From Desulfobacteraceae bacterium (GTDB lineage Bacteria; Desulfobacterota; Desulfobacteria; Desulfobacterales; SURF-15), in NCBI GenBank assembly GCA_003599475.1, contig QZKK01000030.1, forward strand, positions 1 through 20,253: a stretch of DNA of 20,253 bases, given 5' to 3'. The position numbers were made by a program, and so were the translations under genes. The notes below the pieces were generated by a model. It searched no databases and was not told the origin of the DNA. It saw nothing but the letters and a program-made list of their open reading frames with translations. Below are positions 7,249 to 19,674 of this stretch, in pieces; positions within the stretch are counted from its first letter, which is position 1; every line of letters starts with the position of its first letter.

Positions 7249-7285
7249 ACGGTTTGAATCTGAATAGAAAGGAAACGATCTCCGC

Positions 7286-7756
7286 ATGGATAGGGTGCAT
7301 CAGAACGAATACACCGAAAGAGCCGAGAAATACTTCCTTGAAGGGTATACATGAGCGGGTGCTCTTGTGCAGGTTGCACAAGAATACCTCGGGGAGGTGG
7401 ACGAACGCATCACCCGCCTGGCAACGGCACTGCCCGGCGGATCGGCCCTCAGAGGCGGGACATGCGGGATCCTGCTCGGCGCAATGGTTGCAATCGGCCT
7501 CAGATACGGATCGGTTGACCGTGAGGGCCGCGACCTGTGCAAAGCGCTTGGAATCCGCACGTTCGACTTTTTCCGGGAGCTCACAAGAGAAAGATTCGGA
7601 AGCGTCGACTGCCGCGGCATCTCCGGGTTCGATTTCACGGATTCCGAAGAAGCGCGGAAATATATCGGAAGCGAGGCGCAGAAATGGTGTGGGGAGCTTC
7701 TCGTGAACACGGTTTGTTTCCTGCTCCCCTTGCTCGACAATCGACAGCAAAAATAG
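7286..7756 (+). CDS. C_GCAxxG_C_C family redox protein, probable selenoprotein (TGA = Sec23)
   Basis: Read from ATG 7286 the frame gives 156 residues with one internal TGA at codon 23 (7352-7354). Residues 11-22 plus the TGA and following Ala read ERAEKYFLEGYT-U-A, matching the family N-terminus, in which EGYNCA places the first conserved Cys exactly at the TGA. The remaining family cysteines are present in GTCGILLGA, in SVDC and in KWCGELL. The length is normal for this roughly 140-residue cytoplasmic putative redox family. A SECIS-like hairpin follows the TGA. AAAGGA lies about 12 nt before the ATG. Starting at the GTG 7367 would remove the active-site segment. I recall that some members of this family carry Sec at this position. 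A nonsense mutation is the alternative, but the exact Cys position and the hairpin argue against it. Function and substrate are unknown. Confidence 0.85.
7352..7389 (+). promoter_or_regulatory. Bacterial SECIS-like hairpin after the Sec TGA
   Basis: Nine nt after the TGA comes CTTGTGC (7364-7370), loop AGGTT (7371-7375), then GCACAAG (7376-7382): a perfect 7-bp stem with GG in the apical loop. The GG begins 17 nt after the TGA, almost the same as in E. coli fdhF, whose apex is also GC-AGGU..GC. A lower helix GGGT/ACCT (7357-7360 with 7386-7389) is possible. The bulged U of fdhF is not evident. The element would recruit SelB with Sec-tRNA. Confidence 0.78.
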
Positions 7757-7766
7757 AACGCGTTTC

Positions 7767-7922
7767 CTATTTGATGATATCTTCTATATCTTCGCAGGAG
7801 GACCTGCAGCTATCGTATTCCTCCAGGCATCTCAGCCGTTCGTGCTCGACACAGTCGTTGAAATGTTCTTCGCACCGGATTCCGCATTCGGATTTCGTTT
7901 CTTCCTGATGTTCATCGATCAT
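7767..7922 (-). CDS. Small twin-CX3C cysteine-rich protein (51 aa)
   Basis: A textbook AGGAGG lies 7 nt before the ATG at 7922, which selects this start over the longer open frame reaching 8057. The product is acidic, hydrophilic and without a signal peptide. Its six cysteines are at 13, 17, 24, 32, 39 and 43, that is CX3C-X6-C-X7-C-X6-CX3C, a spacing symmetrical about its centre. Paired CX3C motifs on a helical hairpin are known in other small proteins, either disulfide-linked or metal-binding; I recognise no specific family. It is convergent with the selenoprotein gene, with only 10 bp between the stop codons. The local sequence is more A/T-rich than the surrounding genes. Function unknown; thiol/disulfide or metal chemistry is an inference. 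Confidence 0.7.
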   Translation of the reverse strand: MIDEHQEETKSECGIRCEEHFNDCVEHERLRCLEEYDSCRSSCEDIEDIIK

Positions 7923-8201: not shown

Positions 8202-9383
8202 ATGAACCGGTTTGCAGCCGCAAAGATGGCGCGGATCCACCAGTCGGGGATCCGGCGGGTGTTTGAAAAAGCGCATCGCCTGGAAGCCCAGGGGCATAAA
8301 GTGATCCATTTCGAATCGGGAAGGACCGATTTCGATACTCCCCGGCCGATCAAGGATGCGGCCGTTCGGGCGATCGAAAAGGGGCTTGTCCACTATACCT
8401 CGAGCATGGGGATCCCTGAGCTGCGCACGGCGGTCGCACGGGATTTCCACAGCCGCTACGGGATCGATATGGATCCTTTGAGCGAGGTTCTCATCACGGC
8501 CGGGGGAAGCGGCGCGCTCATCGACTGCCTGATGGCCCTGGTGGAGACAGGCGATGAAGTGATCGTCGCGGATCCGATGTTTCTATTTTACAGGGACTGG
8601 GCCGAATTCATGGGCGGAAAAACCGTTTTCATGCCGCTTGAAGCGGAGAAAGGGTACCGTATTTCGGCGGATGCGCTCGAATCGTGCGTCACGGAAAAGA
8701 GCAAGGTCATCCTTCTGAACACCCCCCACAACCCGACCGGATCCTGTCTCGACCGGGAGAGCCTTGAGATTGTCGCCGCAAAGGCACGGGCGCACGATCT
8801 TGTCGTGGTTTCAGACGAGTGCTACGACCGGATCGTCTATCCTCCGAACGAACACCTGCCGATTGCGGCCCTCCCGGGGATGCGGGAGCGCACACTTACG
8901 GTAAACTCCTTTTCCAAGTCGTTTGCCATGGACGGCTGGCGTCTGGGCTGGGTGATCGGACCGGCCGATCTGATCTGGGAGCTTGACAAAGCCCAGCAGC
9001 ATACGGTGATCAACGCAACTACCTTTGTTCAATACGGGGCTCTGGCCGCATTCGATGAAGGCGACCGGCTGATTCGACCGATGCTCGAGGAGTACGCCGC
9101 CCGGCGCAAGCTTGCCGTAAGCATGCTCCGGACCGATCCGAAGATCCATTTTATCGAACCGCAGGGCGCCTTCTACCTGTGGCTGAAGACCGGTCTTTCC
9201 ATGGACGGATGGGAGCTTGCGGACATGCTCCTGGAGAAATGCCACGTGGCCGTGACCCCCGGAGACGAATTCGGACCCTCCGGAAAAGGGTATCTGCGAA
9301 TCAGCTACTCAACGCCCCGGGAAAACGTCGGAACCGGCCTCACGCGGATCATGGAGATGCTTTCTTCTCTGCGCAGGGATTAA
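8202..9383 (+). CDS. PLP-dependent class I/II aminotransferase
   Basis: Fold-type I aminotransferase of 393 aa, similar to the AspB/aspartate-aminotransferase group. Landmarks are the substrate-loop YTSSMGIPELR, NTPHNPTG (173-180), SDECYDR (204-210, PLP O3' and pyridine contacts) and the PLP lysine K239 in SFSKSFAMDGWRLG. A C-terminal arginine in YLRISYS should bind the substrate carboxylate. Length is normal and no signal peptide is present. The ATG has GAGAGGA about 9 nt upstream. It would transfer an amino group between an amino acid and a 2-oxo acid in the cytoplasm; the exact substrate cannot be told. It is convergent with the M20 peptidase gene, overlapping by 4 bp. Proximity to a peptide-uptake and deacylase locus suggests amino-acid catabolism. 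Confidence 0.93.
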   Translation: MNRFAAAKMARIHQSGIRRVFEKAHRLEAQGHKVIHFESGRTDFDTPRPIKDAAVRAIEKGLVHYTSSMGIPELRTAVARDFHSRYGIDMDPLSEVLITAGGSGALIDCLMALVETGDEVIVADPMFLFYRDWAEFMGGKTVFMPLEAEKGYRISADALESCVTEKSKVILLNTPHNPTGSCLDRESLEIVAAKARAHDLVVVSDECYDRIVYPPNEHLPIAALPGMRERTLTVNSFSKSFAMDGWRLGWVIGPADLIWELDKAQQHTVINATTFVQYGALAAFDEGDRLIRPMLEEYAARRKLAVSMLRTDPKIHFIEPQGAFYLWLKTGLSMDGWELADMLLEKCHVAVTPGDEFGPSGKGYLRISYSTPRENVGTGLTRIMEMLSSLRRD

Positions 9384-10561
9384 GCCCTCCCGTCGTTTCC
9401 GTTCGAGAGAAACCGCAGGGCGGTCAGGGTAAACATCCGGGAGATCCGGGGCAGGCATTCCAGGGAAACGTATTCGTTTTTCTGGTGGACGGCGCCCCTT
9501 TTTGGCCCCAGGTGAAGGCAATCGATTCCGGCCTCGCCGGCAAACACATTGGCATCGGTGATGCCGTTTGAGTAGTTGTAGACGGGGGCGGCGCCGGTGA
9601 CCTCCCGATAGACGGAGTCGAACGCTTTTAGAATCGGTGCATCCTTTTTCATCATGTAGGCTTCGTAGCGGGGCGGCTTCATCTTCACTTCGACTTCAGC
9701 CGCCAGCTTCAGACTTCGGATGAGACTCTCCATATCCTCTGTGGCGCCCGCTGCTGTTTCCCCCGGCACCAGCAGCCGGTTGACTTCGAAGCGGCAGCGG
9801 TCCGGAACGACGACCGAATAGACCTTGTAGCCGCCTTCGATTTTCAGCGTCGAAAAATTCCCCTTCCCGAAATCCGGGTGTTTTTTGAAATCGAGCCGAT
9901 TCAGATTGCAGAGGATTCGTGCGGCCTCCTCGACGGCATTGATTCCGTTTTGCGGGCTGAACCCATGGGCGGCCTTTCCCTTGACCAGGATGTCGTAGAG
10001 GACCTTTCCGGTGATGCCGAGCGGAATCGGTTTGTCCGCATCCCCTGCATAGGGCTCGGCCAGCACCACCGCGTCCGCCTCCCGGAATTCGGTGTCCAGT
10101 ACGGCCTTGGCCCCCTTGCTGAACGCCTCCTCATCGATGACCGCCGAAAAGGAAATCTCCCCGTCGAACCGGTATTTCGAGGCTGAAAAGGCGCGCATCA
10201 TGTCCATGATGCAGGCGATTCCCCCCTTCATGTCGCAGGCCCCGAGTCCGTATATCCGGCCGTTTCTTTCCGTAGGCTCGAACGGGTCCGTCTCCCACCC
10301 TTCCACAACGGGGATGGTATCGGTGTGGCCGTTGAAGTGAAGCTTCCTTCCGGAGGGGCTTCCCTGAATCCGGGCATACACGTTGGGTCTTCCCGGCTCG
10401 ATCTCGTGCAGCCTGCATTCGAGACCCAGCCTCTTCAGTTCCTCGAAAATATAGCGCGCCAGATCCCCTTCTTCCCCCACCACCGAGGGGATGCGGATCA
10501 TGTCTTTGAGAATGCGAAGCGTGTAGGAAGGATCCAGTTTCGAAAGAACTCTATCGGCCAT
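9380..10561 (-). CDS. M20 family deacylase/peptidase (ArgE/DapE type)
   Basis: Zinc-dependent M20 hydrolase of 393 aa of the ArgE/DapE/carboxypeptidase G2 group. Metal and catalytic residues are in place: GHTDT (H79, D81), the bridging aspartate D110 in CDMKGG, the base and ligand pair E144-E145 in DEE, E169 in AEP, and the late histidine in GAVHQKN. The dimerisation lid sits between. No signal peptide, so cytoplasmic. It should remove an acyl group from an amino acid or cleave a small peptide; the substrate is not readable. TTAGGAGA lies 5 nt upstream of the ATG at 10561. Its stop codon overlaps that of the aminotransferase in the shared bases TTAA (9380-9383). Confidence 0.92.
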   Translation of the reverse strand: MADRVLSKLDPSYTLRILKDMIRIPSVVGEEGDLARYIFEELKRLGLECRLHEIEPGRPNVYARIQGSPSGRKLHFNGHTDTIPVVEGWETDPFEPTERNGRIYGLGACDMKGGIACIMDMMRAFSASKYRFDGEISFSAVIDEEAFSKGAKAVLDTEFREADAVVLAEPYAGDADKPIPLGITGKVLYDILVKGKAAHGFSPQNGINAVEEAARILCNLNRLDFKKHPDFGKGNFSTLKIEGGYKVYSVVVPDRCRFEVNRLLVPGETAAGATEDMESLIRSLKLAAEVEVKMKPPRYEAYMMKKDAPILKAFDSVYREVTGAAPVYNYSNGITDANVFAGEAGIDCLHLGPKRGAVHQKNEYVSLECLPRISRMFTLTALRFLSNGNDGRA

Positions 10562-10868
10562 GATTGTCTCCTAAACGATAGGTTTCAGGTGTCAGCACCG
10601 CTGCCGAAGCGACCGGTTTAATCGATAAGAAAAATTCGGTGCGCATTTCCCCCTCCCCCAGCCCCTCCCACCCGGGAGGGGAGTTTCTGTTTCCCTCCCT
10701 CTCGACGGGGGAGGGTCAGAGCCTGCCCCGTGCTTGACACGGGGGTGGGGGTGACGGGGTGAAGCTTCGTAAGCTCTTCGTTTGATTTTTTCTTCATTTG
10801 CTTACTTTGTCTTATTGTTTGGATTTTGGTGCTTGGAGCTTGGAATTTTCTTTGAGCGGGGTGAAGTT
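10562..10868. other. 307-bp repeat-filled gap between M20 gene and dppF-type gene
   Basis: No gene. It contains the CCCCTCCC double-hairpin repeat (10649-10764). After that come A/T-rich sequence and a string of near-repeats of the GCTTGGAGCTTGGAATTT type (10830-10853). A short open frame runs leftward through the repeat from 10890, but its sequence is repeat-derived and it lacks family features. Confidence 0.6.
10649..10764 (+). repeat. CCCCTCCC double-hairpin repeat, copy 1
   Basis: CCCCTCCC (10662-10669) and GGGAGGGG (10674-10681) form a GC hairpin with loop ACCC. A second pyrimidine/purine pair (about 10692-10715) forms an imperfect hairpin. A G-rich tail of the GGGGGTGGGGGTGACGGGGTGAAG kind closes the element. 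The same order of modules, in the same orientation, recurs at 19692-19812. Confidence 0.75.
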
Positions 10869-11855
10869 TCATATGAGCTGGCCATCCCACTCGGTCTTAT
10901 AACAGGCGACAAAATGATCCGTGCTTACGGGCTTGAGCTCGGGTTCGATTCCTTTGCAGACATCCCTCCGGTAGGCGCACCGCGGATGGAAGCGGCAGCC
11001 CGACGGCGGGTTGACGGGGCTTGGCACATCGCCGGCAAGGATGATCCGCTTCGTTCGGACTTTCGGGTCAAGCGTCGGAATGGCCGAAAGGAGCGCCTGT
11101 GTATACGGGTGCGTCGGGCTGGCATAGAGGTCCCGATAGGTGGCCGTCTCCACGATCTTTCCAAGGTACATGACCGCAATCCGGTCGCACAGGTACTCCA
11201 CCACGGCAAGGGCGTGGGAGATGATGATATAGGAAAGATGGAATTCCTTCTGCAGATCGATCAGAAGGTTGATGATCTGCGCCTGTATCGACACATCGAG
11301 CGCCGATACCGGTTCATCTCCGACGATAAGCTGTGGATTCAGACACAACGCCCTGGCGATTCCGATCCGCTGCCGCTGTCCTCCGCTGAATTGGTGGGGG
11401 TAGCGCTCCCCCTGCTCCGCGGAGAGTCCGACCTTCGTTAGAAGGTATGCGATCCGCGCATCCATTTCCCGGCCGTGATAGAGGCCGTGGATTCGCATGG
11501 GATCTCCCAGGATCCGTTTTACCGTCATCCTCGGGTTCAAGGAGGAGTAAGGATCCTGGAAGATGATCTGCATCTCCTTTCTAAGCGACTGCAGCTCGCC
11601 TCCATCGATGGTGGACATATCTTTATCGCGGAATGAAATCTTGCCTCCGGTCGGCTCGATGAGCCGGAGAACCGCAAGGCCGGTGGTGGTCTTTCCGCAC
11701 CCGCTCTCTCCCACGATTCCGAGCGTTTCCCCTATGTTGAGATCGAAGGAGATGCCGTCTACGGCATGTACGAAGCTCGTAGAAGCCCGGGACCACATTC
11801 CCTTCCGGATGGGGAAATGGACCTCCAGGTCCTTTACACGCAAAATGCTTTCCAA
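10869..11855 (-). CDS. Peptide ABC transporter ATPase, DppF/OppF type
   Basis: ABC ATPase of 328 aa that would power the permease pair encoded at 14775-16546. Walker A is GESGCGKT (49-56), Q-loop Q100, signature FSGGQRQR (156-163), Walker B LIVGDEP with D180/E181, and switch H214. The residue after the switch His is Ala (ISHALAVV) where the family almost always has Asp. The C-terminal oligopeptide-transporter domain carries C287, C293, C300 and C318, the four-Cys pattern that holds an iron-sulfur cluster in several Dpp/Opp ATPases. The start codon is TTG at 11855, with GAGGAGG 6 nt upstream. It lies 12 bp downstream of the DppD-type gene, in one operon. Confidence 0.93.
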   Translation of the reverse strand: MESILRVKDLEVHFPIRKGMWSRASTSFVHAVDGISFDLNIGETLGIVGESGCGKTTTGLAVLRLIEPTGGKISFRDKDMSTIDGGELQSLRKEMQIIFQDPYSSLNPRMTVKRILGDPMRIHGLYHGREMDARIAYLLTKVGLSAEQGERYPHQFSGGQRQRIGIARALCLNPQLIVGDEPVSALDVSIQAQIINLLIDLQKEFHLSYIIISHALAVVEYLCDRIAVMYLGKIVETATYRDLYASPTHPYTQALLSAIPTLDPKVRTKRIILAGDVPSPVNPPSGCRFHPRCAYRRDVCKGIEPELKPVSTDHFVACYKTEWDGQLI

Positions 11856-11867
11856 GCAGCTCCTCCT

Positions 11868-12872
11868 CTATTTCTCCGCGTAGAGCCAGCAGCGGACCTG
11901 GTGCGATTCCCCGACTTCGACCCCCACTTGGATCAGATCCGATGCCCTCTCGCGGCAGACGGTCTTGACATGCGGACACCTCGGATGAAAGCTGCACCCG
12001 GACGGAAGCGACAACAGGCTCGGAACGACTCCTTCGATTTCATGAAGCCTGCTGCGCCCGTGTTTTGCACGTTCTCCGATCCGGGGGATCGATCGCATCA
12101 GCCCCCGGGTGTAGGGGTGTTTGGGGTCTTTTAGAATCACTTCCGCGCTCCCGGTCTCCATCACCTTCCCCGCATACATGACTACGATCCGCTGCGTGGT
12201 CTCTGCAATGACCCCCAGGTCGTGGGTGATCATCAAGATCGCCGTTTGGTAATTTTCCTTCAAATGAACCATCAGTTCGAGGATCTGCGCCTGGATGGTC
12301 ACATCGAGGGCCGTTGTCGGCTCATCGGCGATCAGGATCTCCGGCTTGCAGGAAAGCGCCATGGCGATCATGGCGCGCTGCCGCATGCCGCCAGAAAGCT
12401 TGTGGGGGTATTCGTCCACCCTTTTTTCGGGGAGAGGGATCTGGACCTGCCGCAGCATATCGACGGAAAGATCGCGGCTTTCGCGCTTCCCTTTATTCAT
12501 GTGCAGGAAAAACATCTCGGAGATCTGCCGTCCGATGGTGTAGACCGGATTGAGCGATGTCATCGGCTCCTGAAAGATCATCGAGATCCGCTTTCCGCGG
12601 ATGCGCCTGATTTTCTTCAGAGGAAGTTTCAGGAGATCGATTCCGTTGAACCGGATTTCGCCCCCCGCGATTTTTCCCGGAGGCTCTTTGATCAGCCGGA
12701 TGATCGAGAGGGCGGTGACGCTTTTTCCGCACCCGGACTCGCCGACCAACCCGAGCGTCTCCCCCCGGTTCAGCGTAAAGGACACGTCATCGACGGCCTT
12801 TGCGATTCCGGCATAGGTATAGAAATAGGTTTTCAGGGAGTCGAGCTCCAACAGCCGGTCGTTCTGGACCAT
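11868..12872 (-). CDS. Peptide ABC transporter ATPase, DppD/OppD type
   Basis: Partner ABC ATPase of 334 aa. Walker A is GESGCGKS (44-51), Q-loop Q101, signature LSGGMRQR (159-166), Walker B ILIADEP (179-185) and switch H217 followed by the usual Asp. The C-terminal domain has C293, C299, C306 and C328 in GCSFHPRCPHVKTVC...RC, the four-Cys motif typical of DppD. It is the first gene of the leftward ATPase operon, divergent from the binding-protein gene. The 238-bp gap between the two start codons holds back-to-back -35-like boxes. Together with the DppF-type protein it should form the heterodimeric motor of a nickel/peptide/opine-family importer. Confidence 0.94.
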   Translation of the reverse strand: MVQNDRLLELDSLKTYFYTYAGIAKAVDDVSFTLNRGETLGLVGESGCGKSVTALSIIRLIKEPPGKIAGGEIRFNGIDLLKLPLKKIRRIRGKRISMIFQEPMTSLNPVYTIGRQISEMFFLHMNKGKRESRDLSVDMLRQVQIPLPEKRVDEYPHKLSGGMRQRAMIAMALSCKPEILIADEPTTALDVTIQAQILELMVHLKENYQTAILMITHDLGVIAETTQRIVVMYAGKVMETGSAEVILKDPKHPYTRGLMRSIPRIGERAKHGRSRLHEIEGVVPSLLSLPSGCSFHPRCPHVKTVCRERASDLIQVGVEVGESHQVRCWLYAEK

Positions 12873-12962
12873 GGCTTCTCCTCATTTCGCTTGAGCATGC
12901 CGATCCGCCCGCACTCAGGGGGAGGGCGTTGAAAGAGAATACATCCCGGATTGCAGTTCGAT

Positions 12963-13013
12963 TGTCAAGATAGAAACTTGATGTTGACATCCATTTGATT
13001 GAAATTGTATGAA
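12963..13013. promoter_or_regulatory. Divergent promoter region of the peptide transporter
   Basis: Rightward: TTGACA (12984-12989), an 18-bp spacer and TATGAA (13008-13013, 4/6), giving a leader of about 90 nt before ATG 13111. Leftward: a second TTGACA (TGTCAA at 12963-12968 on the plus strand) faces the ATPase genes, but no good -10 is found at 17-18 bp. The two -35 boxes are 15 bp apart and back to back, so one regulator could act on both operons. Confidence 0.5.
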
Positions 13014-13110
13014 CAGCATCGGTCTGCTCCGATTCGCTCGGCGTTTACCCGTTTCGATCGGCTCTCAAACGCCGCAACATCTTTTTTCTAACCCCAATAA
13101 AGGAGGTCGT

Positions 13111-14715
13111 ATGAGAAAGGTCTGCATTCTTTTGCTCCTTGTTTCCGTTCTTTTCGGTTTTGGATCGTCGGAAGCCCTCGCCGCCCGTTCGGGGGGAACC
13201 CTAAACTTCATGGCGCCTTACGGAGGGGATCTTTTCGGGCTCGATCCCCACAAGTCGACCCGCGTCCAGGATTTTCTGGTCAGCATGAACGTCTTCCGAT
13301 CCCTTTATCGATGGGATTCAGAAAAGAACATGCCTGTCCTTGAGCTTGCAGAGAGCGTAAAGATCTCGGACGACAGCCTGGTCTATACGTTCAAGCTGCG
13401 CCCCAATGTCAAATTTCACAACGGCCGGAAGATGACCGCCGAGGACATCATCTGGTCATATAACCGCATCGCCTCCATGAAGCCTTCATCGCCGAATGTG
13501 ATGTACATCCGGGATATCAAGGGCGTTCAGGATGTCGAAAACGGGAAGGCCGATAAAATCGCCGGGCTGAAAAAAATCGACGATCTGACCCTCGAGATGA
13601 CCCTGGAAAACCCGGTCGACATCAAGCACGCCCTCCAACAACCCGGAACCTCCATCGTTCCCAGGGAGGAAGTGGAAAAGCTGGGAGATAAATTTTCTTC
13701 CGAGCCGGTCGGATGCGGCCCTTTCAAGCTGGTCAAATGGATCAAAGGGTCCGAGGTGATCATCGAGAAGTTTGCCGACTTCTACATGGAGGGCCGCCCT
13801 TATCTGGACAAGGTCAGCTACAAGATCATGACCGAGGCGGCAGCCCGGGATCTTGCCTTCAAGGCCAAAGACCTCGATGGGTCCATCGTCGAGGGGGTGA
13901 ACTATCCCGAGTATCTGGCCGATCCGGTCGTTTCCAAGAACATGCTCGAGGTGGTCGAGCTTTTCACCCGGCACATCGGGTTTAACCAGAAAGTGAAGCC
14001 GTTAAGCGACAAGCGCGTCCGGCAGGCGATCAACTACGCCATCCCGGCGGATCTGATCATCAAGAAGCTTATGAAGGACAAAGCCTACCCCTGCCAGGGG
14101 TGGCTGCCGACCCCGCTTTGGGGGGAAGGCCCAAAGCCGATCAAGTACGAGTACAACCCGGAAAAGGCGATGCAGTTGATGAAAGAAGCCGGGTACGAGA
14201 AGGGCTTTACGGTGGAGGCGATCGGAACCGCGAACTCCTCCTGGGGAACCGTCGTCTATGAAGCGATCCTGCCGTATCTCAAGAAGCTCAATATCGAGCT
14301 CAAAATCCAGCAGATGGAAGGGGCGGCCATGGCGGAGAAAAACCGCACCGGCGATTTTCAGATGTACATCTGGTCGGTCGGCTCCCCCACGGACCCTCTG
14401 AAGGCCATGGAGCGATGGAAGTCGAACAACCCGCAGGCAGCCGGAAACTATATCGCCTACAACAATCCGGAGTATGACAAGATCCTCGATCAGGCCGCAA
14501 AGGAGCGCGATTCGAAAAAGAAGATGGAGCTCGTTATGAAGGCAAACGCCATCTTCGCAGAGGATGCGCCGGTCTGGTTCTTCAACTACAATAAGGCGGT
14601 CATGGCCCACCAGCCCTGGGTGCACGGGCTGCAGGCCGTCGCCATCGAGATGATGTATCAGGATATGACAAACGTCTGGGTCGATGAGAAATCCCCCCGG
14701 GCGAATGTAAAATAA
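13111..14715 (+). CDS. Periplasmic substrate-binding protein, family 5 (Dpp/Opp)
   Basis: Solute-binding protein family 5 of 534 aa, the dipeptide/oligopeptide/nickel group. A Sec signal peptide occupies residues 1-24 with a hydrophobic core and an ALA-A cleavage site. There is no lipobox, so the protein should be free in the periplasm. The mature start SGGTLNFMAP and the GLDPHKSTRVQDF segment are typical, as is the conserved KFHNGRKMTAEDIIWSYNRI block. AAAGGAGG ends 5 nt before ATG 13111, which rules out the longer open frame from 13009. It leads the rightward operon: binding protein, two permeases, M20D hydrolase, D-acylase. The downstream enzymes suggest that the ligand is a peptide or N-acyl amino acid. 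Confidence 0.94.
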   Translation: MRKVCILLLLVSVLFGFGSSEALAARSGGTLNFMAPYGGDLFGLDPHKSTRVQDFLVSMNVFRSLYRWDSEKNMPVLELAESVKISDDSLVYTFKLRPNVKFHNGRKMTAEDIIWSYNRIASMKPSSPNVMYIRDIKGVQDVENGKADKIAGLKKIDDLTLEMTLENPVDIKHALQQPGTSIVPREEVEKLGDKFSSEPVGCGPFKLVKWIKGSEVIIEKFADFYMEGRPYLDKVSYKIMTEAAARDLAFKAKDLDGSIVEGVNYPEYLADPVVSKNMLEVVELFTRHIGFNQKVKPLSDKRVRQAINYAIPADLIIKKLMKDKAYPCQGWLPTPLWGEGPKPIKYEYNPEKAMQLMKEAGYEKGFTVEAIGTANSSWGTVVYEAILPYLKKLNIELKIQQMEGAAMAEKNRTGDFQMYIWSVGSPTDPLKAMERWKSNNPQAAGNYIAYNNPEYDKILDQAAKERDSKKKMELVMKANAIFAEDAPVWFFNYNKAVMAHQPWVHGLQAVAIEMMYQDMTNVWVDEKSPRANVK

Positions 14716-14724
14716 ACACCGCTT

Positions 14725-14760
14725 CACTTCGAGGGGGGCAAAAACGCCCCCCTCGAAGTG
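14725..14760 (+). promoter_or_regulatory. Intercistronic 15-bp perfect hairpin
   Basis: CACTTCGAGGGGGGC (14725-14739) pairs perfectly with GCCCCCCTCGAAGTG (14746-14760) around a 6-nt loop AAAAAC. No U run follows, so it is not a classical terminator. Placed after the binding-protein stop and 14 nt before the permease start, it probably protects the upstream mRNA and lowers downstream expression. That gives excess binding protein over permease, a common arrangement in ABC importers. Confidence 0.75.
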
Positions 14761-14774
14761 ATGGAAGAGATCCC

Positions 14775-15710
14775 ATGCTTGCCTACGCCGTTCGAAGACT
14801 GCTCCAGTTCATCCCGACGATCCTGGCCATCACGATCATCATTTTCCTGCTGCTCAACGTGCTTCCGGGAAACGCTGCGCTGATGGCGGGGGGGGAGCAG
14901 GATCAAAACATCGATGCCCGGTACATCGAACGGATGAAGATAGAGTGGGGCTTGGACAAGCCGATCTGGCTCCGCTACCTGATCTATCTGAAGGATCTTT
15001 CCCAGGGCAACCTGGGGCTTTCTTTTCTGAGGAGAGAGCCGGTTTACGATTTGATTGCGACGCGGCTATGGCCGACCCTGAAGCTGGCTGTGGTGGCCAT
15101 GACCATCGCGGTATCCCTGGGGATTCCGCTGGGCTTCTACTCCGCCCTCCGGCAGGGGAAATGGCTCGACACCGTCACCATGATGGGGGCCGTATCCGGG
15201 GTGTCGATGCCCCAGTTCTGGCTCGGCCTGCTGCTGATGTACCTGGTGTCCGTGAAACTGAAGATTCTCCCCCCTCAGGGGTACGGCGAGGGGAATTTCG
15301 CAAATATCATCCTGCCCGGTTTCACTCTCGGGGTCGGGTATATGGCCTTGCTGGCGCGGGCCACGCGGGCGGCGGTGGTGGAGATTCTGACGACCGACTA
15401 TATCCGGACGGCAAGATCCAAGGGGCTCTCCGAACTGATGGTCAATACCCGGCATGTCTGGCGGAACACGCTCATTCTCGTCCTGACGACAGCCGGGCTC
15501 CAGTTCGGAGCTCTGATGGGCCAGACCGTGATCGTCGAAAAGCTTTTCTCCTGGCCGGGCTTGGGATCGCTGCTGGTCGATTCCATCTTCCAGCGCGACA
15601 TCCCGGTCACCCAGGGGTGCATCCTGACCATCATCATGGTATTTTTGCTGGTCAACCTGGTCGTCGACCTGCTCTACGGTTTTATCGACCCGAGAATTTC
15701 GTACCAATGA
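14775..15710 (+). CDS. Peptide ABC transporter permease, DppB/OppB type
   Basis: Inner-membrane permease of 311 aa with about six transmembrane segments. The first is the hydrophobic stretch ending FLLLNVLPG near residues 10-31, a hallmark of DppB-type proteins. The coupling EAA loop contains DYIRTARSKGLSELMV and contacts the ATPases. The C-terminus YGFIDPRISYQ is typical (usual form DPRIR/DPRISY). GGAAGAG lies 7 nt before the ATG, directly after the hairpin at 14725-14760. The stop overlaps the next start as ATGA, so the two permeases are translationally coupled. Confidence 0.95.
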   Translation: MLAYAVRRLLQFIPTILAITIIIFLLLNVLPGNAALMAGGEQDQNIDARYIERMKIEWGLDKPIWLRYLIYLKDLSQGNLGLSFLRREPVYDLIATRLWPTLKLAVVAMTIAVSLGIPLGFYSALRQGKWLDTVTMMGAVSGVSMPQFWLGLLLMYLVSVKLKILPPQGYGEGNFANIILPGFTLGVGYMALLARATRAAVVEILTTDYIRTARSKGLSELMVNTRHVWRNTLILVLTTAGLQFGALMGQTVIVEKLFSWPGLGSLLVDSIFQRDIPVTQGCILTIIMVFLLVNLVVDLLYGFIDPRISYQ

Positions 15711-16546
15711 GAAACACCATTCGAAAACTGATGGACCGGACCAACCTGGTCGTGGGCGGGTTGATCACCCTTATGATCGTGGTTGTCGCGGTATTCGCCC
15801 CTTTTCTTGCTCCCTATCATCCGATCGACGATGCAGACCTGATGGTATCGGACGAGCCGCCGAATGCGAAGTTCTGGTTCGGTACGGACAACCAGGGAAG
15901 AGACATCCTTTCCCGGGTGATCTACGGGGCGAGGATTTCGCTTGCAGTGGGGCTGATCAGCCAGAGCTTCAACACCCTGATCGGAATCATATTGGGGATG
16001 ACGGCCGGGTTTTTCGGCAAATGGTGGGACGATCTGGTCGTGGGCCTGACCAACATCATGCTCTCCATCCCTTCGCTGATCTTTGCCCTGGCCGTCATGG
16101 CGATTCTCGGCCCCGGGCTGTTGAACGTTTTTTTTGCGCTCGGATTCACCAACTGGTCCTATTCCTGCCGCATCACCCGATCCCAGGTGCTCTCCGCCCG
16201 GTCGCTCGACTACGTCACGGCCGCCAGGGCTCTTGGCTACGGAAGGGTGCGGATCATGTTCACGCAGATCCTGCCGAATGTCGTCGGACCGATTCTGGTG
16301 ATCGCCACACTCGGTGTGGCCTACGCCATCCTGCTGGAGGCGTCGCTTTCCTTTCTCGGCCTGGGAGTGCAGCCGCCGACCCCCTCGTGGGGAGGGATGC
16401 TTTCCACCGCACGGCAGCAGCTTTTTATCTCCCCATGGCTCTCGGTCTTCCCGGGGGCGGCGATCTTCATCACCGTCCTGGGGCTCAATCTCCTGGGAGA
16501 CGGCCTCCGGGATATTCTGGATCCCCACATCAGCAAGCAGAAATAA
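15707..16546 (+). CDS. Peptide ABC transporter permease, DppC/OppC type
   Basis: Second permease, 279 aa, starting at the ATG of the ATGA overlap with the DppB-type gene. An in-frame open stretch continues upstream to about 14945 but is antifamily and lies inside the permease gene. The N-terminal segment LVVGGLITLMIVVVAVFAPFLAPYHP is the family OppC_N transmembrane helix. FGTDNQGRDILSRVIYGARISL follows, then the EAA loop DYVTAARALGYGRVRIMFTQILPN and the end GDGLRDILDPH. Length is normal. It forms the membrane channel with the DppB-type protein. Confidence 0.95.
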   Translation: MRNTIRKLMDRTNLVVGGLITLMIVVVAVFAPFLAPYHPIDDADLMVSDEPPNAKFWFGTDNQGRDILSRVIYGARISLAVGLISQSFNTLIGIILGMTAGFFGKWWDDLVVGLTNIMLSIPSLIFALAVMAILGPGLLNVFFALGFTNWSYSCRITRSQVLSARSLDYVTAARALGYGRVRIMFTQILPNVVGPILVIATLGVAYAILLEASLSFLGLGVQPPTPSWGGMLSTARQQLFISPWLSVFPGAAIFITVLGLNLLGDGLRDILDPHISKQK

Positions 16547-16564
16547 TCCATAGAAATTAAAAAA

Positions 16565-17854
16565 ATGGCTCTTCTAGAATCGATCAAAAAAGAATTGTCC
16601 GCCGGTGTAGACCGCCGCATCCCCGAACTGCTCGAAACCTACCGGGACTTCCATCGATCCCCCGAGCTCTCCGGACAGGAAAAGGAGACCGCCGGACGGG
16701 TGGCCGAGGCATTCTCCAGGCTTGGGCTCACCGTTACAGAACGTGTCGGCGGGCATGGCGTGGTCGGCCTTATCCAAAACGGACCCGAAAACGGCCCCGG
16801 TCCCGTTCTCATGCTGCGCGGCGACATGGACGCCCTTCCCATCCGAGAGGAAACAGGGCTTTTCTATGCCAGTTCCGCTGTCACCCGGAACCGGTCCGGG
16901 GAAGAAGTGCCCGTGATGCATGCCTGCGGCCACGACCTTCATACGACGGCACTGATCGGAACCGCCGGTGTCCTTGCCGCGATGAAAAATCACTGGTCCG
17001 GAACCCTTCTCCTGGTCGCCCAGCCCGCGGAAGAGGCGATCGGGGGGGCAAAGGAGATGATTTCAGACGGGCTGTTTGCGCGTTTTCCCCGGCCGCAGTG
17101 GGCGCTTGCTTTTCATGTCAACCCCAACCACCCCACAGGAACCGTGGCCATCCGTTCCGGTGCGATTTCTACCGGATCGGACAACCTGGACATTATGATC
17201 CGAGGGATGGGCGGTCACGGCGCAACCCCGCACAAGACCAAAGACCCGGTGGTTCTTGCCGCACAGACGGTGATCGCGCTGCAGACGATCGTGAGCCGGG
17301 AGGTGGATCCTGCCGAAACGGCCGTCGTCACCATCGGAGCGGTCCACGGGGGGACGCAGCGAAACATCATCGCCGAATCGGTCTGTCTTCAGCTTACGGT
17401 CCGCACATACAGCATCGAGCTTCGGGACCAGATCGTCGCCGCCATCCGGCGGATCAGCCGCGGGCTTGCCCAGGCCGCGGGGATGCCGGAAGATCGGATG
17501 CCGGAGGTGATCCGGGTTGACGATTTCACCCCGCCTGTCGTCAACGATTCGGGGCTTACGCAGCGGATCACGGAGACCTTCCGCGACCTTTTCGGGGAAA
17601 ACAGGGTGACCGAAGGCCGGATTTCGACCGGAAGCGAGGATTTCAGCGAATTCGGAGCGGTCGACCCTCCGATTCCGCTGCTGATGTATCATGTGGGCTG
17701 CACCGCCCCTGAAAGGCTTGCTTCCGGGGAAAAACCGGCCCAACTGCATACCCCGGCGTTTTCTCCGGATCCGGAATCGACCCTTCGAACCGGCATTCTT
17801 GCCCAGTGCGGGGCGGTGCTGGAGTTGTTGAAGCTGGCGAAATGTCCAATGTAA
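16565..17854 (+). CDS. M20D amidohydrolase (hippurate hydrolase/aminoacylase type)
   Basis: Cytoplasmic metal-dependent amidohydrolase of 429 aa in the M20D group (hippurate hydrolase, IAA-amino-acid hydrolase, N-acetyl-diaminopimelate deacetylase, carboxypeptidase Ss1). Motifs are RGDMDALP (85-92), HACGHD with C121 and H123, QPAEE with E156/E157, the ligand H184 in AFHVNP, and STGSEDFSEF. The late histidine in LHTPAFSPD replaces the more usual HSPxF. It lies 18 bp after the DppC-type gene, clearly in the operon, so it probably cleaves the imported acyl-amino acid or peptide. No Shine-Dalgarno is visible before the ATG, only an A-rich leader. The last codons and the stop fall in a 14-bp tandem repeat (17841-17882). 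Confidence 0.92.
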   Translation: MALLESIKKELSAGVDRRIPELLETYRDFHRSPELSGQEKETAGRVAEAFSRLGLTVTERVGGHGVVGLIQNGPENGPGPVLMLRGDMDALPIREETGLFYASSAVTRNRSGEEVPVMHACGHDLHTTALIGTAGVLAAMKNHWSGTLLLVAQPAEEAIGGAKEMISDGLFARFPRPQWALAFHVNPNHPTGTVAIRSGAISTGSDNLDIMIRGMGGHGATPHKTKDPVVLAAQTVIALQTIVSREVDPAETAVVTIGAVHGGTQRNIIAESVCLQLTVRTYSIELRDQIVAAIRRISRGLAQAAGMPEDRMPEVIRVDDFTPPVVNDSGLTQRITETFRDLFGENRVTEGRISTGSEDFSEFGAVDPPIPLLMYHVGCTAPERLASGEKPAQLHTPAFSPDPESTLRTGILAQCGAVLELLKLAKCPM

Positions 17855-17882
17855 AATGTCCAAGGCAGAATATCCAAGGGCG
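17841..17882 (+). repeat. 14-bp tandem repeat, three units
   Basis: Three units start at 17841, 17855 and 17869, each beginning AATGTCCAA (third unit AATATCCAA). The first unit supplies the last residues and TAA stop of the M20D gene. Confidence 0.65.
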
Positions 17883-17916
17883 TAGGTTGGGTTTCGTTGC
17901 TCTCAACCCAACCTAC
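17882..17916. repeat. GTAGGTTGGGTT inverted repeat
   Basis: GTAGGTTGGGTT (17882-17893) and AACCCAACCTAC (17905-17916) form a perfect 12-bp stem with an 11-nt loop. This palindrome type is a widely dispersed intergenic repeat in bacteria. TTTT follows six nt after the stem, so it may also slow or end transcription after the M20D gene. Confidence 0.65.
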
Positions 17917-17972
17917 AACTACTTTTAAATAGGAACGATTGCAGCCTTGAACCCTGGGAGCTGAACCTACGA

Positions 17973-18007
17973 TTTACCGATTTCAGGTCAAACCCGAAAT
18001 CGGTAAA
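17973..18007. repeat. 12-bp inverted repeat with extended stem
   Basis: TTTACCGATTTC (17973-17984) pairs with GAAATCGGTAAA (17996-18007). Inside, after one A/C mismatch, GGT/ACC closes a CAA loop. No U run on either strand. Function unknown; it may be a miniature repeat end or an mRNA hairpin before the deacylase gene. Confidence 0.5.
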
Positions 18008-18028
18008 ACACTGCGGACCCGAAAACCG

Positions 18029-18054
18029 CTGAACACTGAACACTGAACACTGAA
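18029..18054 (+). repeat. Heptamer tandem repeat (CTGAACA)3
   Basis: Three exact CTGAACA units (18029-18049) followed by CTGAA, ending 18 nt before the deacylase start. Related to the CTGAACC strings at 141 and 2830. Confidence 0.7.
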
Positions 18055-18072
18055 ACCTACAAAAGGTGAACC

Positions 18073-19674
18073 ATGCCATCCGAATTCGATCTTCTCATCC
18101 GAAACGCCAGAATCGCAGACGGGACCGGAAACCCCTCCTTTGCAGGAGATGTCGGGATTCGCGGCGGAAAGATCGTTTCCGTCGATCGAAAAATCGACGG
18201 AAACGCACGAAAAACGATCGATGCCGCCGGCCGGGTTGCAGCCCCTGGATTCATCGACGCCCACAGTCACGACGACCTTTTCCCGTTCCTAAAGACAGAC
18301 TGCGATGAAAAGGTTCTCCAGGGAGTTACCACGACCATCGCGGGAAACTGCGGCACCTCTCCGGTTGCCGTGGGGGAAGCGTATTTTCCGGAGCTCATGG
18401 ATGCCTTAAAATTCATGGGTGCGGCCGAAATCCCTCCCTCCCGATGGTTTAAGTCCTTTTCCGATTACCTGGAACGACTGGATTCGGTCCGGCCCGGAAT
18501 CAACATCGGGGCTCTGATCGGCCACGGGTCCGTTCGCATCGCCGCCATGGGAAACGCCAACCGTGCCCCTTCCGGTGCAGAGCTCGAAACCATGGAGTCT
18601 CTGGTCGGGGAAGCCATGGAAGCCGGAGCCCTCGGTATCTCGACCGGTCTTGCGTATATTCCGGGAAATTATGCGGGAAAGGAGGAGCTGGTCTGCCTCG
18701 GCCGAATCGCAGCGCGGCACAATGGGGTCCTGACCTCTCACATCCGCAGCGAACGGGACCAGGTGGTTGAGGCAATCGAGGAAGTGATCGCCGTGGGGGA
18801 CACAGCCGGATTGCCGGTTCAGATTTCGCATCTGAAAACCGCCGGGACAAACAACTGGGGAAGGAGCGAAGAAGTGCTGGATCTTCTCCGCCGTGCCCGT
18901 TCAAAGGGAACGGAGGCGACATGCGACGTCTATCCATACTGCGCTTCGAGCACATCCCTTTCGGCGCTTCTCCCTTACCACATCATGGCGGGGGGGGCTG
19001 CATCCTACAGCCTCAGGCTGAAAGATCCGGCAGTCAGAAGGGCGATCGTCCGGGAGATCGAGGAAAATACCGATTGGGAGAACATGCTGAAGGGAACCGG
19101 CTTCGACCGGATCGTTCTGAACCGGTCAGGCATCTACCGGGACTACCTGGGACTTACGCTGGCCCAAATCGCCGAAAAAAAAGACGTAAATCCCTACGAT
19201 CTGATCTTCGATCTGGTGGCGGCGGAGGGACACGGGGCGGGCATCATCCTGTTCAGCATGGATGAAGACGATGTCCGCCGCATCCTGCAGAGCCCCTTGA
19301 GCATGGTGGGCTCGGACGGAGGACCGAAAACCGGGAGCGCAATGAACCATCCCCGATTCTGCGGGACATTCCCGCGGGTGCTCTCAAAATACGTCCGGGA
19401 AGAAGGGGTACTTAAGCTCGAAGAGGCCATCCGGAAGATGACGTCTTTTGCGGCCCGGACCTTCGGCATCAAAGGCAAGGGGCTTCTCAAGGAAGGCTTC
19501 GATGCCGATATCGTGGTCTTCGATCCGCAGGCCGTGAAAGACTGTGCCACCTTCGAAAACCCCTCCGCAAAACCCGAGGGAATCGATCTGGTCATCGTCA
19601 ACGGGGTCCCCGCCGTAGAAGACGGGAAGCTTACGGGAAATCGCTCGGGGAGAGTGATACGGAGAGGAGCTTGA
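18073..19674 (+). CDS. N-acyl-D-amino-acid deacylase (D-aminoacylase family)
   Basis: Amidohydrolase-superfamily enzyme of 533 aa matching D-aminoacylases and N-acyl-D-glutamate/aspartate deacylases. The family's zinc and catalytic residues are visible: GFIDAHSHDD (H64, H66), GNCG (C93, the bridging Cys), H223 in TSHIRSE, H253 in ISHLK and D415 in GSDGGPK. Composite beta-sandwich segments flank the barrel: GDVGIRGGKIVSVD at the N-terminus and GFDADIVVFDP near the C-terminus. No signal peptide. AAAGGTG precedes the ATG. It hydrolyses N-acyl-D-amino acids to D-amino acid and carboxylate; the acyl and side-chain preference cannot be read. It lies 218 bp after the M20D gene across a repeat-rich gap, so it may be in the same operon or transcribed separately. 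Confidence 0.92.
   Translation: MPSEFDLLIRNARIADGTGNPSFAGDVGIRGGKIVSVDRKIDGNARKTIDAAGRVAAPGFIDAHSHDDLFPFLKTDCDEKVLQGVTTTIAGNCGTSPVAVGEAYFPELMDALKFMGAAEIPPSRWFKSFSDYLERLDSVRPGINIGALIGHGSVRIAAMGNANRAPSGAELETMESLVGEAMEAGALGISTGLAYIPGNYAGKEELVCLGRIAARHNGVLTSHIRSERDQVVEAIEEVIAVGDTAGLPVQISHLKTAGTNNWGRSEEVLDLLRRARSKGTEATCDVYPYCASSTSLSALLPYHIMAGGAASYSLRLKDPAVRRAIVREIEENTDWENMLKGTGFDRIVLNRSGIYRDYLGLTLAQIAEKKDVNPYDLIFDLVAAEGHGAGIILFSMDEDDVRRILQSPLSMVGSDGGPKTGSAMNHPRFCGTFPRVLSKYVREEGVLKLEEAIRKMTSFAARTFGIKGKGLLKEGFDADIVVFDPQAVKDCATFENPSAKPEGIDLVIVNGVPAVEDGKLTGNRSGRVIRRGA

Follow-up and report, generated by a model that had tools for sequence, protein, structure and literature searches.

Proteins of the C_GCAxxG_C_C family (PF09719/TIGR01909) have already been catalogued among selenoproteins. 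One C-GCAxxG-C-C selenoprotein is listed in PMC9312934, and two forms are listed in PMC13188914, which cites studies of 2007 and 2008 and gives the Olavius paper (PMC1976440) as the source of form 1 and PMC2398784 as that of form 2. The listings in PMC9312934 and PMC13188914 carry no selenocysteine (Sec) motif, so they do not show whether their Sec stands at the column described here; the family name strings are absent from the main text of PMC2398784, and the family terms from that of the deep-Sep paper. Here we describe a gene of the same Pfam family, with one proposed Sec like the listed forms, in a stretch of 20,253 nucleotides from a Desulfobacteraceae bacterium (contig QZKK01000030.1), the whole of which is referred to as the window. 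Since this kind of selenoprotein has been listed before, the original prediction of a "hidden selenoprotein" is supported as to selenium but overstated the novelty: the gene most likely adds a branch to a family whose use of selenium is already known, and its novelty is modest. Our literature searches found no paper on the clade to which it belongs.

The reading frame runs on the forward strand from ATG 7286 to a TAG ending at 7756 and is interrupted only once, by the TGA of codon 23. Its main elements are as follows.

7286 to 7756, forward strand: full-length C_GCAxxG_C_C gene, 156 residues with TGA as Sec (translation; PF09719 match of 57.8 bits over residues 21–143).
7352 to 7354, forward strand: proposed Sec codon 23, an in-frame TGA at the first family cysteine column (alignment; TGA also in the relative L001, see below).
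7463 to 7465, forward strand: codon of Cys60, the "GCAxxG" cysteine, here in TCGILLG (invariant column in both alignments).
7610 to 7612, forward strand: codon of Cys109 (invariant column in both alignments).
7688 to 7690, forward strand: codon of Cys135 (at least 90% in one alignment, invariant in another).

If the TGA is translated as a residue, the protein scores above the PF09719 gathering cut-off of 27 bits, and the four conserved cysteine positions of the family are accounted for by C60, C109, C135 and the TGA, which aligns with a Cys of the relatives. The locus thus has an in-frame TGA at a conserved Cys column, as a selenoprotein gene would. Translation and the PF09719 alignment bear out the earlier claims that one TGA stands at the first of the four family cysteines and that the other three are intact. 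The site motif had been given as EGYNCA in relatives; the Cys/Sec column holds, but the surrounding letters vary (GYTC, GFNU, GFHC/GFHU and similar). The protein shares with the family the domain over residues 21–143 and the same four Cys columns; none of the five NCBIfam models listed for it reaches its curated cut-off. TIGR01909, which NCBI names "C-GCAxxG-C-C family (seleno)protein", scores 37.7 bits against 47.4, the DVU_1555 family NF045669 55.4 against 103, and NF047622 11.4 against 400. The HUGP/GUXX-star fusion selenoprotein NF045501 scores 39 against 325; its first part matches residues 6–134, whereas the window protein is one 156-residue domain with no fusion.

We consider it very probable that this gene encodes a 156-residue PF09719 selenoprotein, in which a hairpin directly behind UGA 7352–7354 would serve as a bacterial Sec insertion sequence (SECIS) element and SelB with Sec-tRNA(Sec) would insert Sec as residue 23, where other members have the first of the family cysteines or, likewise, a TGA. 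The evidence in favour comprises the hairpin, a TGA at the same codon in a relative, the restriction of the column to TGA or Cys, and the presence of selA, selB, selC and selD in that relative's genome.

The relative, L001, is the one DNA match that a scan of a genome collection brought up (assembly "Deltaproteobacteria bacterium SM23_61"). It is 61–66% identical to the window protein, depending on the alignment, and its codon at the Sec position is likewise TGA. Of the 15 codons 5' of the TGA, 3 are identical between the two, 7 synonymous and 5 non-synonymous, and 10 of the 16 base differences fall at third positions; in the 134 codons from the TGA on, the corresponding counts are 34, 51 and 49. 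Agreement of this kind on both sides of the TGA indicates that the reading frame is not a product of chance. The comparison was widened to 48 family loci, the top-scoring matches (up to 30 per search) in searches that covered 8 genomes of the class and 395 of the phylum; among these loci, L010 is the L001 gene itself. TGA occupies the column in 29 and Cys in 17, a ratio that is biased towards near relatives because the loci are best matches only; the other 2, with a gap there, do not enter the ratio, the hairpin counts or the tree. All 46 resolvable loci therefore carry TGA or Cys, and close relatives with neither, which would speak against Sec, are absent among them, although two database proteins, P0087 and P0088, have tryptophan (Trp). 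In these entries the residue perhaps stands for a TGA that a gene caller translated under a different genetic code. Neither one scan of viral contigs nor one tblastn search of plasmids turned up a relative.

The region behind the TGA has the following elements.

7356 to 7391, forward strand: SECIS-type hairpin with a lower stem, a 9-bp upper stem (7363–7371/7375–7383) and an apical loop GGU (7372–7374), 17 nt from the TGA (fold).
7367 to 7369, forward strand: GTG start of the 129-residue database form, inside the 5' arm of the hairpin (list of open reading frames (ORFs), fold, protein database).

For the 41 bases from the TGA (7352–7392) the folding energy is −19.3 kcal/mol (z −3.75), as good a value being reached by 1 of 200 shuffles; the upper hairpin alone gives −10.9 kcal/mol. 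The fold agrees with all four constraints on bacterial SECIS elements given in a figure legend of PMC13188914, and so does the upper hairpin taken alone. Hairpins were compared among relatives with a simple scan of our own at a threshold of −7.5 kcal/mol, over 30 TGA rows (the window included) and 17 Cys rows. A hairpin at or below the threshold is present in 24 of the 30 TGA rows versus 3 of the 17 Cys rows (Fisher p 4e-5). After a control in which codons were replaced by synonymous ones, 18 and 2 rows, respectively, are kept at p ≤ 0.05 (Fisher p 0.0013); both Fisher values are too small, because the rows are related. The control gives p 0.026 for the window and 0.10 for L001. Six TGA rows miss the threshold, L049 altogether. 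The window and L001 show no covariation, since the six-pair core of the stem is common to both; other subfamilies have different stem sequences, 16 to 24 nt from the TGA, with the best hairpin of L041 at 27. A scan of the window with Rfam gave nothing useful (two matches at E ≤ 1, both under their gathering scores). One Cys-form gene, L052 (genome G264), retains a SECIS-type hairpin after its Cys codon, with an energy of −10.4 kcal/mol and a p of 0.03 in the synonymous-codon control; perhaps it changed from Sec to Cys recently.

In the protein database the gene is represented by P0002, a 129-residue form starting at GTG 7367. This is the same piece that a mechanical ORF list gives for the frame (7367..7756) and just what had been foreseen of a gene caller; the database copy lacks the first 27 residues and, with them, the Sec. 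Among 86 close proteins found in the database, P0002 being one of them, 81 start at the residue encoded by GTG 7367, five codons past the TGA. Of the other five, P0005 has Cys and P0087 Trp at the column, P0081 apparently starts in another frame, and P0077 and P0085 start further down. It follows that most stored copies of the clade seem to lack the first ~27 residues and the Sec, and work on annotation, structure or activity that took up these short copies would begin from an incomplete protein.

This prevailing start, the Trp recorded in P0087 and P0088, and the single base that separates TGA from the Cys codons TGC and TGT each speak for a different rival reading. The start would be correct if TGA 7352 were a true stop, with a working protein made from GTG 7367 without the first cysteine and the upstream frame left as a leader or relic. 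We regard this as improbable: L001 preserves the upstream frame and differs there mostly at third positions, the Cys form P0005 includes both the upstream part and residue 23, Cys or TGA is retained throughout the resolvable loci, and GTG 7367 itself lies in an arm of the hairpin. A change of one base could also turn a Cys codon into this TGA, be it through faulty sequencing or through mutation in a pseudogene. That seems very improbable, given the TGA at the same codon in the assembly of another organism, the same 81 of 86 close proteins beginning just past the TGA position, the hairpin at SECIS distance and the absence of any further stop in the frame.

The Trp entries, in turn, would fit an organism that reads TGA as tryptophan. 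Among the 14 other genes of the window that were examined, TGA ends 4 and is in frame in none, which argues against such a reassignment, and TGG is used in all 14; a column held by Cys or TGA in every resolvable locus is also at odds with it. We give this explanation next to no weight.

The machinery needed for a Sec-containing product is present in the L001 genome, with selB (369 bits against a cut-off of 242), selA (636 bits) and tRNA-Sec (selC; Rfam 70.3 bits, and called tRNA-SeC with anticodon TCA by ARAGORN). The selD of this genome (374 bits) has an internal TGA (L067, G001:C181) and is therefore likely a selenoprotein itself. For the window's organism, the nearest matches of a methyltransferase in the window are in genomes G333, G295 and G164 (67–68%) and that of an aminotransferase in G001 (55%); the placement of the organism thus differs between the two genes, and the first three genomes may be close to it. 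All four genomes have selB and tRNA-Sec above the cut-offs. The frame, the family, the TGA/Cys column, the SECIS-type hairpin and the Sec machinery of relatives are computational findings, whereas Sec incorporation in the window's organism is inferred. The selB gene by itself says little and fails as a discriminating marker, because it is nearly universal across the phylum: it is above its cut-off in 47 of 53 chosen phylum genomes, namely in 22 of the 23 that carry a TGA family gene, 11 of the 14 whose matches are all stop-free and 14 of the 16 without a match.

A second, distant PF09719 subfamily (L016, L020–L023, L027; P0090–P0124) has TGA at the same column. These six loci have, at a distance of 24 nt, a GGG/GGU hairpin, and many of the database proteins look truncated at 126 residues; these proteins (P0090 and others) start just past the TGA position of the relatives' DNA (L016, L023, L027).

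A maximum-likelihood tree was built from 48 rows, that is, the 46 resolvable loci, the window and P0005. The window, L010 and the Cys form P0005 make up one clade (support 100/100). The Sec/Cys state requires at least 11 changes on this tree, 7 of them forced by well-supported branches; exchange between Sec and Cys has thus probably been frequent, within the window's clade too, with some long branches uncertain. The family thus offers a natural series for comparing Sec and Cys versions at one site.

With regard to function, the one solved relative found is split-Soret cytochrome c (PDB ID: 1h21). The model of the window protein shares its fold over 140 residues, the match falling in the domain that precedes the haem part. 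The GxxCGA motif is also common to both, and a Cys of 1h21 aligns with Sec23; unlike it, the 156-residue translation has no CxxCH haem motif (by eye), in keeping with the low NF047622 score given above. 1h21 was brought out by VIA-align 2 and by sequence profiles only, and a helical model can score high from its arrangement alone; it was retained on account of the scores, 12.2 against 4.4, and of the independent sequence support. None of the Foldseek matches was usable (best E 0.57), and a single-sequence search of solved structures returned nothing under E 0.4. Abreu and colleagues reportedly proposed in 2003 that the split-Soret centre is of the [2Fe-2S] type.

We tentatively suggest a role in redox chemistry or electron transfer for this small helical protein: Sec23, Cys60, Cys109 and Cys135 could together make up a counterpart of the iron centre in the split-Soret cytochrome c domain, and the selenol would lower the potential or speed exchange. 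The structural link gives the label "putative redox protein" a meaning that can be tested, in terms of metal binding. More doubtful is a reading in which Sec23 would coordinate an iron-sulfur centre homologous to the "novel iron centre" of split-Soret cytochrome c, or hold the labile place in it; this widespread family would then alternate between Cys and Sec as the ligand in a single kind of small iron-sulfur protein. No paper on Sec as a ligand of such clusters came up in a literature search. Alternatively, the selenoprotein may have no iron centre, with Sec23 acting as a thiol/selenol redox partner in a selenenylsulfide with Cys60, Cys109 or Cys135. Pfam labels the family "putative redox-active", and in the marine survey of PMC2398784, 33 of 51 selenoprotein families are given as thiol-oxidoreductase homologues or thioredoxin-like. 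Position 23, however, is not part of a CxxU or UxxC motif, and an iron centre is reported for 1h21, the one solved relative found; this alternative is quite conceivable, if a little short of probable.

Comparison of the gene neighbourhoods of the window and L001 gave no firm partner. Peptide-type ABC transporter genes occur within a few kb in both, identified by profile in the window and by eye as ORFs just upstream in L001; their order and distance differ. Upstream of the selenoprotein gene there is a possible ribosome-binding site.

7270 to 7273, forward strand: AGGA, 12 nt 5' of ATG 7286 (by eye).

Positions 9380–19674 hold the peptide-type ABC transporter genes together with two M20 peptidases and an amidohydrolase, possibly a peptide-use cluster. 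A small cysteine-rich ORF (7770–7922, reverse strand; 51 residues, 6 Cys) is convergent with the selenoprotein gene, and one protein search found a single relative, P0125, with 98% identity over 90% of the query. At 162–2447 on the reverse strand lies a hybrid histidine kinase that starts with a MEDS sensor domain and also has PAS and receiver domains.
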